Source of the DNA: Marinomonas spartinae | Lineage (GTDB): Bacteria; Pseudomonadota; Gammaproteobacteria; Pseudomonadales; Marinomonadaceae | Assembly (NCBI RefSeq): GCF_900089775.1 | Contig: NZ_FLOB01000001.1 | Location: 248,001 to 312,000 of the forward strand | Direction: 5' to 3' | Length of the DNA: 64,000 nucleotides | Part shown: piece by piece, positions 45,808 to 50,026 of the stretch | Layout of the letters: each line of letters opens with the position of its first letter | Numbering within the stretch: position 1 is the first letter of the stretch | Translations under genes and position numbers: made by a program | Notes under the pieces: model-generated | Seen by the model: the letters and a program-made list of their open reading frames with translations, nothing else | Database searches by the model: none | What the model was told of the DNA's origin: nothing

Positions 45808-45951
45808 TCAAAGCGAACACTGTGCCTGTGCCGTTGGATTGTTTGGGGGCGCGCCGTAAGAGTCTGTTCGGTGACTTGCGTCCCTTGCTCTCGTGGCGCC
45901 ATTTTTTTTTACTACTGCTTGGTTTTTATCTTTATGTGGTTGTGCTTTCAT
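45808..45951 (-). CDS. 47-residue peptide gene at the operon end
   Basis: A short frame starting two bases after the GMC oxidoreductase stop. A perfect AAGGAGA lies seven bases before its ATG, inside the last codons of the GMC gene, and a terminator follows. The peptide has a basic, hydrophilic N-terminal half (MKAQPHKDKNQAVVKKNG) and a tail rich in Pro, Asn, Gln and Ala with one Cys near the end (YGAPPNNPTAQAQCSL). It has no signal peptide and is of no recognised family. It may be a partner, a regulator or a modified-peptide precursor; the sequence does not decide. Confidence 0.6.
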   Translation of the reverse strand: MKAQPHKDKNQAVVKKNGATRARDASHRTDSYGAPPNNPTAQAQCSL

Positions 45952-45953
45952 GA

Positions 45954-47990
45954 TCAATCTCCTTTTGCGGCTATTTCATCGGCTACCTTTGCCATACAGT
46001 ACTCTGCCACGGCGGCGATGGTCCATGCGGGTGTACAGGCCCCGGTCGAGCCTGGAATTAATGAGCCATCAGCCACGTATAGCCCTGGTATCTCTTTTCC
46101 ATCCGCGCCTCTTACTCTGCCAAAACCATCACAGGCTTTACCAAGAACACAGCTCCCGAGTGGATGTGCGGTCATTCCATAAGCCACATCAAAATTGTTT
46201 TCATCCTCATGTCTATCGTGAGTATGGGATAATTGCGTTGTGGATTCTTTTATTGGCATAGGGCCTGAGTAATGTATTTTTTTGTCGATGGGGTCAAAAC
46301 TGTTTGCTTCATTCCACTTATTTAAGGTGTAAGCTAATGTGTTAGCAGCATCTGCAACACCTTCAGCATATTTCTTTGAAATACCTTGATAACTATCGTC
46401 TTCTACAATTTTAGTAGGAGGATAAGATAACTCGTAACCTCCTTTTCCGTTATAAATAAATGACCCAGGAGCAGTGTTATAGCATACCCCCATATTATAG
46501 GTATTTTGTAGACTATCGGATTCTTCGTACCATGCGGGATAAAGTAAGAAGCGGATAAAAGGAGAAGCCTGATATTGTTTCATGAACTTTAAGCAGTTTT
46601 GCTCGATTTCAGTAGAGTCACTATCAACTCTAGTGATTTCATCACTCACCCCTTCAATATAAGAAAAATAGGCATCGACAGACCCAGGCCCACCATTAGA
46701 GGATCTGACCCGATTAGGTACACTCTGAGTCGCCATTACATCGCCATTTTGTCCCCAGTATTTACCCATATAATGACTTAGAGTAGGTAAGCTGGATGTT
46801 TTGGTATCATCTGGGTTGGGAGTGTTGGCCGACTCCAGTAATAATCGTGCCGTATGCATGGATCCTGCAGAGAAAATGATGTTTTTTGTATCAATAATTT
46901 GCTGCGTTGATTTATCGAGTTCATCTGCATTAATTTGAGTCACATAAATACGGTAAATAGGATCCTTCTCAGTAGAATTTGGAGCCATGGCGATATGAGT
47001 CACCTCACTGAGGCATTGAATATCAAGAAGACCTGTTTCTTTCGCCTTTTTCAAATAGTTTTGATCCAGTGTTTTTTTAACGCCATAAAGTTGATTATGA
47101 TCGTCATTATTTTGGCTGTAGCTGTTCATCCCATACCACATCTCACCAATTGTGGCAGAAGGAAGCATTGTGGCTTCCGCTTCTTTTACCACCACACCCC
47201 AATTGAATGCCATTTCGATATTACCAATTTCAGCTTCTTTAATATTTGGCGGTGTTTCGGTTTCCAAAGGTTTTTTTGTTGCCGCTAGTTTTTGGGCTTG
47301 CTCTTTGAAAGACCTAGTAGAAAGATAGCTTGGCGTATCTATTAATGGGATTGTGTGATTATCCTTTCCATTGTTTATTTGGATCTTAGCTACCTCAATT
47401 GTTTCTAAAGACATCATGTCTTTTACTGTATCGTAATGGGGGGCTAAAGCCTGATAATCTAACAACTTTTTCGAGAGGTCATCAGGAAACTCAGGGTCGC
47501 GAAAAGCCAGATTAAAAGCGACTCGTGACGGTTTTTGGAAAAAGGTATTGTACACATGAGAGGTCCCACCTAAGGCGGCACCGACTAGGACTGTCATATT
47601 TTCATTCGGGATCGCTTCAACTAAACCAGGGTATTTTTGAATTGGCTTTGCTGCGTAAGTACCACTGTTAAAATTCAGTACACTATCAGTCATTCCTGTC
47701 TGTTTTTGACCTGGGGTGAAGGTGACAGCTGTCCCTAGAGGTTCTGCTTCAACCATCCAGCCAGCGCGAGCATCGGGTTGACGATAAGTACAAAAAGGTG
47801 GCTCTTTTACTGGATTATCCGTTAGGTTACCCCACCAATCTTTGCCTCGTTCCAATAATAATACAGGTTTTTTATCGTCCGGACTCTTCTCTTTTTTAGA
47901 GTAAGCCTCACTAATGCGTAGTGCTGACACACTGCCGCCAAAGCCTGAGCCGATAATCACTGTGTCATAGGTCTTGTTTGGGTTAGTCAT
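45954..47990 (-). CDS. GMC-family FAD oxidoreductase (cholesterol-oxidase-like C-terminus)
   Basis: A 678-residue flavoprotein with N-terminal Rossmann motif IIGSGFGGSVSALR (GSGFGG at 14-19). The FAD-contacting VGAALGGTSHVYN region is present. The C-terminal signature HPLGSCVLGKACDGFGRV, then GLYVADGSLIPGSTG, is close to the cholesterol-oxidase branch of the GMC family; the His is catalytic in relatives. No secretion signal is seen. It lies in an operon behind an SHMT-like PLP enzyme and ahead of a 47-residue peptide. The substrate is unknown. Confidence 0.85.
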   Translation of the reverse strand: MTNPNKTYDTVIIGSGFGGSVSALRISEAYSKKEKSPDDKKPVLLLERGKDWWGNLTDNPVKEPPFCTYRQPDARAGWMVEAEPLGTAVTFTPGQKQTGMTDSVLNFNSGTYAAKPIQKYPGLVEAIPNENMTVLVGAALGGTSHVYNTFFQKPSRVAFNLAFRDPEFPDDLSKKLLDYQALAPHYDTVKDMMSLETIEVAKIQINNGKDNHTIPLIDTPSYLSTRSFKEQAQKLAATKKPLETETPPNIKEAEIGNIEMAFNWGVVVKEAEATMLPSATIGEMWYGMNSYSQNNDDHNQLYGVKKTLDQNYLKKAKETGLLDIQCLSEVTHIAMAPNSTEKDPIYRIYVTQINADELDKSTQQIIDTKNIIFSAGSMHTARLLLESANTPNPDDTKTSSLPTLSHYMGKYWGQNGDVMATQSVPNRVRSSNGGPGSVDAYFSYIEGVSDEITRVDSDSTEIEQNCLKFMKQYQASPFIRFLLYPAWYEESDSLQNTYNMGVCYNTAPGSFIYNGKGGYELSYPPTKIVEDDSYQGISKKYAEGVADAANTLAYTLNKWNEANSFDPIDKKIHYSGPMPIKESTTQLSHTHDRHEDENNFDVAYGMTAHPLGSCVLGKACDGFGRVRGADGKEIPGLYVADGSLIPGSTGACTPAWTIAAVAEYCMAKVADEIAAKGD

Positions 47991-48035: not shown

Positions 48036-49211
48036 CTACATCATGATGGTTTGGTGAGCAGCATTGATTTTGCCTATTTCTTCTTTTAGCTCCGGTAGTA
48101 TCGCTTTATCTGAAAGAACGATCTGACTCATCAAGTTGCCAAGGTGAGTACAGTCTTCGGCGGTGTAACCCAGGCGAGTGATTTCAGCGGTACCGATGCG
48201 CATAAAGCCATCCACATGGATGCCGTGTTTGGCGAGCTTATCTCGATGCGCTACGCCCTGCTCTCTCTCCAGTTTGGGGAGCACTTGATGGCAATACGTG
48301 AGGTGTTTGAAATTTGTGCTGCTCTGCCCACGCATTTCAAAGCCATTATCGATCAGGGCATCAGAAAACGCGCGCGAGTTGTCAACGATTTGTGCCGCGT
48401 ATTTCTCCCAAGGCACTTCATCTATCACGATGCCCATACTGGCAATGCGTGCCAGATGAGGGTTACAGATCATGGTGGGGCCATTTAATGGGGTAAAGTT
48501 CGAGACCACATCGATGCGATCATTTAGCTCATCACTATTGGTAAGAATGATGCCGCCTTGAGGACCTGGAAAGGTTTTATGCGTCGAGCCAAAGATAAGG
48601 TCTGCGCCCTCACCTAATGGGTCCTGATACTGTCCGCCAGCGGTTAGCCCCAAGCTATGGGAGCTGTCGTACGCTAAGATGCCTCCGTAGGAATGAACCA
48701 CTTCGGCGACTTCTTTGACGGGCATGGGGCGTGTGTAAATTGAGGCACCTAGAATGACCAGTTTGGGCTGTTCTTTACTGAGCAATTCCAACGTTGCAGG
48801 CACATCGAGTTGCCAGTTTTCATCTGAAAAAGGCAAGGGTAAAGACACACGATGGAAGACTTCATAGTTAAACGGATAGCCGCCACCAGGGAAAAAAGGT
48901 GGCACACGGCCAACTTTATCGCCAGGATTGGTGAGTGCGAAGACCACCGCCATCAAACTGTTACTGCCTGAAATGGGCGATAGGTTCACATGTTTGGCGT
49001 TGAATAGGCGTTGGGCTTTTGCCGTGGTTTGCGACATGATTTCTTGAGAAATCGAGGTGCCAGCATAAAAGGGGGCGGCATAGCGTGAAGCAAGATCGCT
49101 GGCCAGTACTTCGGATGCGGCGTCTGATAAACGGTTCTCGCTGACAATCATATTGATTGCTTGCTTTCGAATGTCGGTATGACCTTTTACGAGTTCAATA
49201 ATGGATTGCAT
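48036..49211 (-). CDS. SHMT-like PLP-dependent enzyme
   Basis: A fold-type I PLP enzyme of 391 residues resembling serine hydroxymethyltransferase. It has INMIVSENRLSD near residue 20 (matching IELIASEN), the Asp-x-x-His pair in YDSSHSLGL (Asp182, His185) and the PLP Lys212 in GSTHKTFPGPQGG. It differs strongly from housekeeping GlyA, which has TTHKTLRGPRGG, and shares its operon with a GMC oxidoreductase, not folate genes. An aldolase, transaldolase or racemase role on an amino acid is as likely as folate-dependent SHMT. GAAGGAAAAG precedes the ATG. Confidence 0.8.
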   Translation of the reverse strand: MQSIIELVKGHTDIRKQAINMIVSENRLSDAASEVLASDLASRYAAPFYAGTSISQEIMSQTTAKAQRLFNAKHVNLSPISGSNSLMAVVFALTNPGDKVGRVPPFFPGGGYPFNYEVFHRVSLPLPFSDENWQLDVPATLELLSKEQPKLVILGASIYTRPMPVKEVAEVVHSYGGILAYDSSHSLGLTAGGQYQDPLGEGADLIFGSTHKTFPGPQGGIILTNSDELNDRIDVVSNFTPLNGPTMICNPHLARIASMGIVIDEVPWEKYAAQIVDNSRAFSDALIDNGFEMRGQSSTNFKHLTYCHQVLPKLEREQGVAHRDKLAKHGIHVDGFMRIGTAEITRLGYTAEDCTHLGNLMSQIVLSDKAILPELKEEIGKINAAHQTIMM

Positions 49212-49327: not shown

Positions 49328-49358
49328 TTAAGAAAGGCTAGTTGTGATTGTCAAAAAT

Positions 49359-49383
49359 GGTATTACACGGTATTACACGAAAA
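49359..49383. repeat. 25-bp tandem element, copy 1
   Basis: Two adjoining copies of GGTATTACAC followed by GAAAA, identical to 50002-50026. It lies 148 bases upstream of the SHMT-like gene. The 10-base period equals one helical turn, as in binding sites of cooperating regulators. Confidence 0.8.
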
Positions 49384-49423
49384 TAGAAACAGGGGGGGTA
49401 TTGGATAGTTGGCTGCTCTTTCC

Positions 49424-49945
49424 CTAGGCAGCCTGTTGATTTTGTTCTGCAATGGCTAACGTTGCAGAGGTGATCACAAAATATTTGGGAGTAAATCGTT
49501 TGCTCTTCGATTGTATTTTTAACTGTAGCCGGTAGCGATACTTTCCTACTAGCTGTTTTCTATTGGATATATTGCCGGATAAGTTAGAGATAGATTGAGC
49601 TGTCTTGATTAGGTCATCAGGTTTTGAGCCGAATTCGTCCAAATTCACAACTTGAGCGTCTTCAAAAAGGATGCGGTGAATAGATACCGAATAGTCTCCA
49701 TTTTGATATGAGGCTTGGTTCGAATCACTCATAGTAAGTGGATGAACTGACCAGTTAATCATTTGCCCTAATGCTGCAAATGAGCATAATGCCGTCGAAC
49801 CCTCTCCTTTGCTATTTGGGTTGTTATCCATCATAAAAGCAGAGCCTTTTAACGAGTTATTTTTGAGAGCCTTTTTAATATTAATAAACACCATAATGTC
49901 CAGCTCTTGTGGGTTTGGTGCTTGATGTTCGTGGAAGATAGACAT
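49424..49945 (-). CDS. AidA/PixA-like inclusion-body family protein (tentative)
   Basis: A 173-residue soluble protein without a signal peptide. The pattern is that of the AidA/PixA family: an early strand ending in MVFINIKKALKNN, a polar MDNNPNSKG stretch, then GQMINWSVHPLTMSDSNQ, a VSIHRILFEDAQVV strand, and a C-terminal YRLQLKIQSK ... KYFVITSATLAI. PixA forms cytoplasmic inclusions in Xenorhabdus and AidA is quorum-regulated in Burkholderia. The match is by pattern only. It lies between two copies of a 25-bp tandem element. Confidence 0.5.
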   Translation of the reverse strand: MSIFHEHQAPNPQELDIMVFINIKKALKNNSLKGSAFMMDNNPNSKGEGSTALCSFAALGQMINWSVHPLTMSDSNQASYQNGDYSVSIHRILFEDAQVVNLDEFGSKPDDLIKTAQSISNLSGNISNRKQLVGKYRYRLQLKIQSKSKRFTPKYFVITSATLAIAEQNQQAA

Positions 49946-49981
49946 AACGTTTGTCCGAATGGTCGAAATTAACCAAACGTT
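49946..49981. promoter_or_regulatory. Inverted repeat at the start of the PixA-like gene
   Basis: Arms AACGTTTG and CAAACGTT, 20 bases apart, directly upstream of the ATG. Confidence 0.35.
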
Positions 49982-50001
49982 ACAATAGTTGGGGCTTTGT
50001 G

Positions 50002-50026
50002 GGTATTACACGGTATTACACGAAAA
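50002..50026. repeat. 25-bp tandem element, copy 2
   Basis: Same doubled GGTATTACAC plus GAAAA as copy 1, here 57 bases upstream of the PixA-like start and 86 bases before the divergent acyltransferase gene. Confidence 0.8.

Follow-up and report, generated by a model that had tools for sequence, protein, structure and literature searches.

The window, the whole 64,000-nucleotide stretch of Marinomonas DNA analysed (from the genome here called G000), carries two neighbouring units on the minus strand that are each preceded by a copy of one short element. The features of this locus are listed below, where the -10 hexamers are predictions drawn from an alignment of 36 sites.

50005-50021, minus strand: box 1, with core GTGTAATACCGTGTAAT, ahead of the PixA-like gene; kept in G044
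49977-49982, minus strand: predicted -10 TAACGT for the PixA-like gene, beginning 22 nt beyond box 1
49424-49945, minus strand: PixA/MakCD-like gene of 173 aa (P0001) that makes up the first boxed unit; detected in no genus genome but G000 and G044 (48 searched)
49362-49378, minus strand: box 2, with core GTGTAATACCGTGTAAT, ahead of the SHMT-like/GMC operon; kept in G044
49335-49340, minus strand: possible -10 TAGCCT of the SHMT-like promoter, at offset 21, not 22
48036-49211, minus strand: SHMT-like PLP enzyme of 391 aa (P0002), whose gene opens the second boxed unit; PF00464, E 7.2e-31
45954-47990, minus strand: GMC oxidoreductase, 678 aa (P0003); PF05199, PF00732

An earlier note on this DNA had described an exactly doubled 25-mer, and this was borne out: GGTATTACACGGTATTACACGAAAA was present at 49359-49383 and 50002-50026 on the plus strand, 643 bases apart from start to start, and occurred in none of 100 shuffles of the window. 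These coordinates take in bases flanking the two cores. No further match was found in the window with up to three mismatches allowed. The distances given in the same note, 57 bases to the start of the PixA-like reading frame and 148 bases to that of the SHMT-like operon, were both correct. With the copies on the plus strand and the genes on the minus strand, each copy is oriented alike relative to the gene it precedes, and the 25-mer read on the gene strand is TTTTCGTGTAATACCGTGTAATACC.

The names attached to these genes differ in how well they hold. P0001 matched no Pfam family up to E = 1, including PixA (PF12306); against NCBIfam MakCD it gave E 8.8e-9, but only 35.5 bits against a cut-off of 110, so that "PixA-like" is a weak label. 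MakD and a PDB "inclusion body protein" surfaced only with E values of 0.31 and 0.39, and the structure model of P0001, with a mean pLDDT of 35, was unusable. For the downstream unit, which had been labelled an SHMT-like/GMC/peptide operon, the SHMT and GMC assignments were upheld by Pfam, and the GMC gene, on the same strand after a gap of 45 bp, probably belongs to the same operon. The peptide gene was not convincing: the interval at the end of the operon (45808-45957, minus strand) holds on that strand only reading frames of 34 and 49 codons, one of which overlaps the GMC stop. In NCBIfam the SHMT-like protein fell short of the cut-off for SHMT (228 of 335), as did its match to fluorothreonine transaldolase of the cut-off there (152.5 of 650); it is perhaps not a housekeeping SHMT. 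Elsewhere in the genus, no relative of the SHMT-like gene exceeded 33%.

Both boxes are kept in G044, taken as M. spartinae, at a spacing of 644 as against 643 bases. The PixA-like and SHMT-like proteins are 85% and 98% identical between the two genomes, and over both loci 791 of 898 aligned bases agree. From box to -10, identity was 44/45 for the PixA-like promoter and 43/45 for the SHMT-like promoter; just upstream of this interval it was 53/60 and 50/60, and just downstream 54/60 and 57/60, respectively.

A search of the genome and its relatives for the element, as the earlier note had envisaged, showed that it recurs. Across the 4.72 Mb of G000, the 20-mer core was found again once with one mismatch and three times with three mismatches, and the reversed-pattern control gave none; the third copy, that with one mismatch, ends 76 bp before a choloylglycine-hydrolase/penicillin-V-acylase-type gene and is oriented alike. 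With up to two mismatches the 20-mer is missing from 45 of 48 genus genomes, and beyond G000 and G044 it was found only in G014, as a single hit with two mismatches inside a reading frame. Searches with GTGTAATNNNGTGTAAT at one mismatch gave 12 hits in G000 (4 with the reversed control), 13 in G044 (3), 13 in G020 (1), 11 in G043 (0), 6 in G035 (1) and 5 in G009 (0). These six genomes of 48 were enriched, with 60 hits of at most one mismatch against 9 for the control; the remaining 42 together gave 63 against 44. Exact hits to GTGTAATNNNGTGTAAT numbered 28, spread over 7 of the 48 genomes. The stricter GTGTAAYNCCGTGTAAT was found in 5 of 390 genomes of the order (G000, G041 and three single hits elsewhere; control 3), a collection with 18 members of the genus that does not include G044, G020, G043 or G009. 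Among 84,980 species genomes, CGTGTAAYACCGTGTAAT recovered five stretches: four were single hits in unrelated organisms, and the fifth was Marinomonas spartinae USM8, with two copies 644 bp apart. G020 carries two CGTGTAAYACCGTGTAAT sites (L111, L116) yet was not recovered from this collection, from which it may be omitted.

To define the element, 36 sites were aligned on the box alone. The sites of L118, L120, L122, L124 and L125 and the minus-strand ones of L123 and L126 (G043, G035) were left out of this alignment, and the G044 pixA/SHMT pair (L130) was left out of both it and the 43-site set used below. On the gene strand the core reads GTGTAAY-NNN-GTGTAAT, that is, two heptamers one helical turn (10 bp) apart, which would place the half-sites on one DNA face. 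The 3-bp spacer is often NCC, with C in 27/36 and 20/36 sites at its last two positions. The earlier description of a tandem 10-mer was therefore right as to the period but not as to the unit: positions 7-9 vary, and what is conserved is a heptamer with a 3-bp spacer.

Downstream of the box, a -10 hexamer starts 22 nt past the box end, with T in 29/36, A in 32/36 and T in 31/36 sites at positions 1, 2 and 6. TAnnnT lay at exactly offset 22 in 24/36 sites, whereas the next best of 120 offsets had 5 and the mean was 1.05. When the 43 sites from eight Marinomonas genomes were reduced to 41 unlinked groups by joining related sites, 23/41 had TAnnnT at offset 22; across 95 offsets the runner-up had 5 and the mean was 1.3. 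The place of the -35 element (positions 16-21) reads T36 T20 G18 A16 C14 A14 of 36, the final A being tied with T; this weak TTGACA-like -35 is located 17 bp before the -10, and the box ends on its first base. If the -10 is numbered -12 to -7, the box occupies roughly -51 to -35. An operator that overlaps the -35 place in fixed phase to the -10, as predicted here, has the geometry of a class II activator site at a sigma-70 promoter. TAnnnT at offset 22 is missing from 18/43 sites, including the SHMT-like promoter of the window and the PVA-type promoter; the former has AGCCTT at offset 22, and its possible -10 is weaker than that of box 1.

Placement relative to genes was compared between the 43 sites and a control in which the same pattern was taken from other genus genomes without enrichment. 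None of the 43 sites lay inside a reading frame of at least 150 aa and 25 had the -10; for the controls, 21/26 lay in reading frames and 0/26 had the -10 (Fisher 2.4e-13 for placement, 2.0e-7 for the -10). The controls were one hit per genome, 4 of 30 having been removed (G003, G009, G020, G035). The 43 sites comprised 41 from the six enriched genomes and one each from G003 and G041, and represented the following shares of all hits with at most one mismatch: G020 13/13, G009 4/5, G043 10/11, G035 4/6, G003 1/3, G041 1/2, G044 3/13 and G000 7/12.

Given that the 43 sites were chosen partly by match quality, the test was repeated on an unselected set, consisting of the 30 hits to TGTGTAATNCNGTGTAAT kept as loci out of 99 listed for G000 and G044. 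Here, intergenic meant outside reading frames of 150 aa or more, and mismatches were counted in the heptamers. All 22 hits with at most one mismatch were intergenic and 17 of them had TAnnnT at +22; by contrast, all eight with two or more mismatches lay inside reading frames and none had the -10. The set covers 12/12 (G000) and 10/13 (G044) of the hits with at most one mismatch, and since the two genomes are close relatives their orthologous sites are not independent. A same-strand reading frame of at least 90 aa started within 400 nt of 38/43 sites, and 5/43 had none; an opposite-strand one lay on the other side of 20/43. Placement is thus intergenic and mostly sense. The earlier note had named many copies in unrelated places as a finding that would speak against a shared regulator; the copies are indeed many, but their kind is different, since the other copies are promoter sites.

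In G020 the genes behind boxes include those for a GoxA homologue (L114, 89% identical to L103) and for a LodA-like protein under both the GoxA and LodA cut-offs (L115). Boxes there also precede genes for a multicopper oxidase (L107) and a tyrosinase (L117), for ferritin-like (L109) and TIG/glucanase-like (L116) proteins and for a PVA-type hydrolase (L110), and at L113 a tail-collar protein cluster begins 460 nt past the box. L103 is GoxA by NCBIfam (1192 bits, cut-off 750); an assignment of L103, L114 and L121 to LodA was rejected, the NCBIfam scan having covered L103, with L114 and L121 (80% identical) placed by identity to it. Boxed genes in G000 include those of L133, a cluster encoding Cys-repeat and ThiF-YcaO proteins, and of L134, a GNAT/methyltransferase/collar cluster, as well as genes for an XRE-type regulator (L135) and the PVA-type protein (L003); in G003 a collar protein directly follows the box (L128). 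In G043 a genuine PixA protein (PF12306, E 9.4e-25) has a weaker box (score 19.5) 104 bp upstream with a rightly placed TAAATT, and this protein showed no significant similarity to the PixA-like protein of the window (E 0.28).

Two of these loci have further features. L133 (9639-14494, G000 C24), about 13 kb before the window, has a boxed promoter followed by genes for 353-aa Cys-repeat and 801-aa ThiF-YcaO proteins and is, from its gene content, a candidate modified-peptide cluster. L119 (1-19001, G043 C16) combines genes for a LodA-like protein and its flavoprotein partner with a kinase-like gene, one for an EndoU-domain protein, a PixA gene recognised by Pfam, and YcaO- and TfuA-like genes judged by eye; it has two strong boxes and one weak.

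The element is very probably the operator of an activator-dependent sigma-70 promoter that is common to both units of the window and to the other sites. Under this model, GTGTAAY-N3-GTGTAAT would be bound head to tail, either by a pair of identical protein molecules or by a single protein whose two DNA-reading domains are equivalent, on one DNA face over about -51 to -35. From there, the bound protein would contact sigma region 4 and so bring in RNA polymerase (class II activation). Besides the two window units, the same activator would serve as many as ten further sites in the genome, counting hits with at most one mismatch; a related gene set would be under the same control in M. mediterranea-like genomes. 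Protein binding, activation, the head-to-tail mode and the kind of reader are all deduced from sequence, and we infer activation rather than repression from the geometry. The suggestion in the earlier note of a site for a shared regulator, with tandem half-sites on one helix face, is strongly supported as a prediction by the recurrence of the box at promoters.

Elements of this kind, tandem activator boxes at sigma-70 promoters, are already known. Tandem heptamers one turn apart by the -35 suggest that the protein binds head to tail, in the manner of OmpR/PhoB-type regulators, whose operators likewise have tandem direct half-sites at or over the -35 of activator-dependent sigma-70 promoters. 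The period of 10 bp agrees with the spacing of about 10-11 bp between such half-sites. The half-sites of the Pho box, next to or over the -35, are CTGTCAT with an 11-bp period, whereas here they are GTGTAAT with a 10-bp period, and no OmpR-type regulator that was compared tracks the box. The CpxR box, GTAAA-N5-GTAAA, shares the 10-bp period and the core GTAA but has A at the fifth half-site base, where the present box has T or C; a CpxR-like regulator, identified by eye, is present in all seven genomes compared, boxed or not.

Tests of response-regulator and XRE-type proteins, and a partial one of AraC-type proteins, gave no candidate for the reading protein. For the OmpR/PhoB type (PF00486), 80 of 86 proteins were compared between box-rich (G009, G020, G043, G000) and box-poor (G021, G030, G011) genomes, and none was limited to the former; six groups had reciprocal best hits in all four box-rich genomes, each with a counterpart in at least one box-poor genome. 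A NarL/LuxR-type (PF00196) response regulator with a hybrid kinase was at first promising, being present in four box-rich genomes with only 29-31% matches in two controls, but was rejected on finding it at 68% identity or more in 38/48 genomes, box-poor ones included. Among AraC-type proteins (PF12833), seven of G043 had a G009 relative at 49-76%, in a comparison of 17 of the 20 matches of G043 with 20 of the 23 of G009, both box-rich. The XRE-type P0005 itself lies behind a box in G000, G044 and G020; it is not the general regulator, as it was not found in box-rich G009 and G035 but was found in box-poor G006, G018 and G040. A genus-wide regulator, PpoR included, is possible, given that its targets rather than the regulator may be the accessory part.

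The PpoS/PpoR system of M. mediterranea (BarA/UvrY-type) bears on this point, because its dependent laccase and tyrosinase correspond in kind to boxed genes of G020. According to passages of PMC8523701, RNA-seq showed laccase and tyrosinase mRNAs to fall in PpoR- and PpoS- strains, the repressed share of all genes in the PpoS-/PpoR- data came to 8.83% and 9.14%, lodA depends on PpoS/PpoR as well, the CRISPR-Cas operons also belong to the regulon, and CsrA1 is suggested as the route from PpoS/PpoR to the oxidases. Passages of PMC8523701, PMC2855505 and PMC4417212 present this regulon as one of stationary-phase exoproducts, in which three oxidases are co-regulated from separate operons with none in common; no oxidase-promoter box of the present kind was found in those passages. 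If L107 is ppoA and L117 is ppoB1, identities assigned by domain, two of the three known PpoS/PpoR-dependent oxidase loci would be boxed. For the lodA-type gene of G020 (L110, 726 aa), no site of 10 bits or more was found in the upstream stretch scanned, which argues that the box is not the whole explanation of PpoS/PpoR control. G020 has, besides one LodA-type and one GoxA-type gene, another of the LodA family; in a passage of PMC4417212, more than one copy is attributed only to M. mediterranea among the five Marinomonas then sequenced, which would fit G020 being M. mediterranea.

An unlikely alternative for the reader is that PpoR, as a UvrY/GacA-type protein, binds the boxes directly through the tandem half-sites, which would make control of laccase and tyrosinase direct and not through CsrA. 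The dependence of both mRNAs on PpoR and PpoS fits this, as such kinds of gene have boxes in G020. If the regulator were genus-wide and its targets accessory, this would also explain why no regulator tested tracks the box, and the published GacA box, TGTAAGN6CTTACA (PMC8523701, in the passages available), shares TGTAA with the heptamer GTGTAAT. Five common bases could, however, be chance. That published site is inverted, whereas the present box is a direct repeat (only the direct form was searched, so that inverted variants would have been missed), and lodA is PpoR-dependent in those passages yet has no box.

It is a little less probable again that the box binds a repressor blocking the -35 rather than an activator. 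The box does overlap the -35 place by one base, where many repressors sit, but a repressor would need no fixed phase to the -10, and a -35 as weak as that of the 36 sites is expected of activator-dependent promoters. Moreover, mutants of the upstream cascade lower, and do not raise, laccase and tyrosinase expression, according to passages of PMC8523701.

Activation through the box remains the preferred reading, and the 25-mer pair is not chance. The alternative raised in the earlier note, a scar left by duplication or by insertion of the PixA-like gene, is suggested by identical 25-mers bracketing a gene found in only two of 48 genomes, but is highly improbable as the sole explanation: the flanks past 25 bp are unrelated (local alignment scores of 9 and 8, against a mean of 8.1 and a maximum of 12 for 200 random pairs), the box recurs at many unrelated promoters with no PixA neighbour or link to a mobile gene, and the 20-mer is missing from nearly all genus genomes. 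Copying of one promoter into the other is possible, and the function would stay the same.

In some marine Marinomonas the box precedes about a dozen genes for oxidases, peptides and other specialised products. The cascade in M. mediterranea is probably under PpoS/PpoR, given that two published dependent oxidases match boxed genes in kind. Tentatively, and with less than an even expectation of being right, the box may mark a transcriptional step that has been missing between the global PpoS/PpoR (Gac-type) cascade and the products at its end: one dedicated, so far undescribed tandem-binding activator would switch on antagonism and exoproduct genes, and the regulon would have been built gene by gene through gain of one promoter module. 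That set would comprise glycine oxidase, laccase, tyrosinase, LodA-like proteins, PVA-type hydrolases, YcaO clusters, PixA-like proteins and collar proteins. A 17-bp box before two of the three oxidase kinds and a GoxA-type gene makes the missing step directly testable. As a search key, the box would also pick out uncharacterised genes for the same programme, such as the SHMT-like/GMC operon of the window and the YcaO peptide cluster.

No description of this box, its regulon or its reader was found in the literature searched, judged mostly by titles and passages. None of the matches listed for GTGTAAT as a direct repeat was relevant by title, and none on Marinomonas regulon binding motifs concerned this box by title.

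Two minor observations concern regulatory genes. At L112 (5113-6740, G020 near 2.99 Mb) an XRE-like N-terminus fused to an AAA ATPase lies behind a box, its frame seemingly interrupted, and beside it is a gene for a sigma54-type AAA domain fused to an AraC-type HTH. In L141, L142, L143, L135 and L110, a gene for a small XRE-type protein recurrently has as neighbours a lodB-like flavoprotein gene and all or the end of a LodA-like gene, whether a box is present or not.
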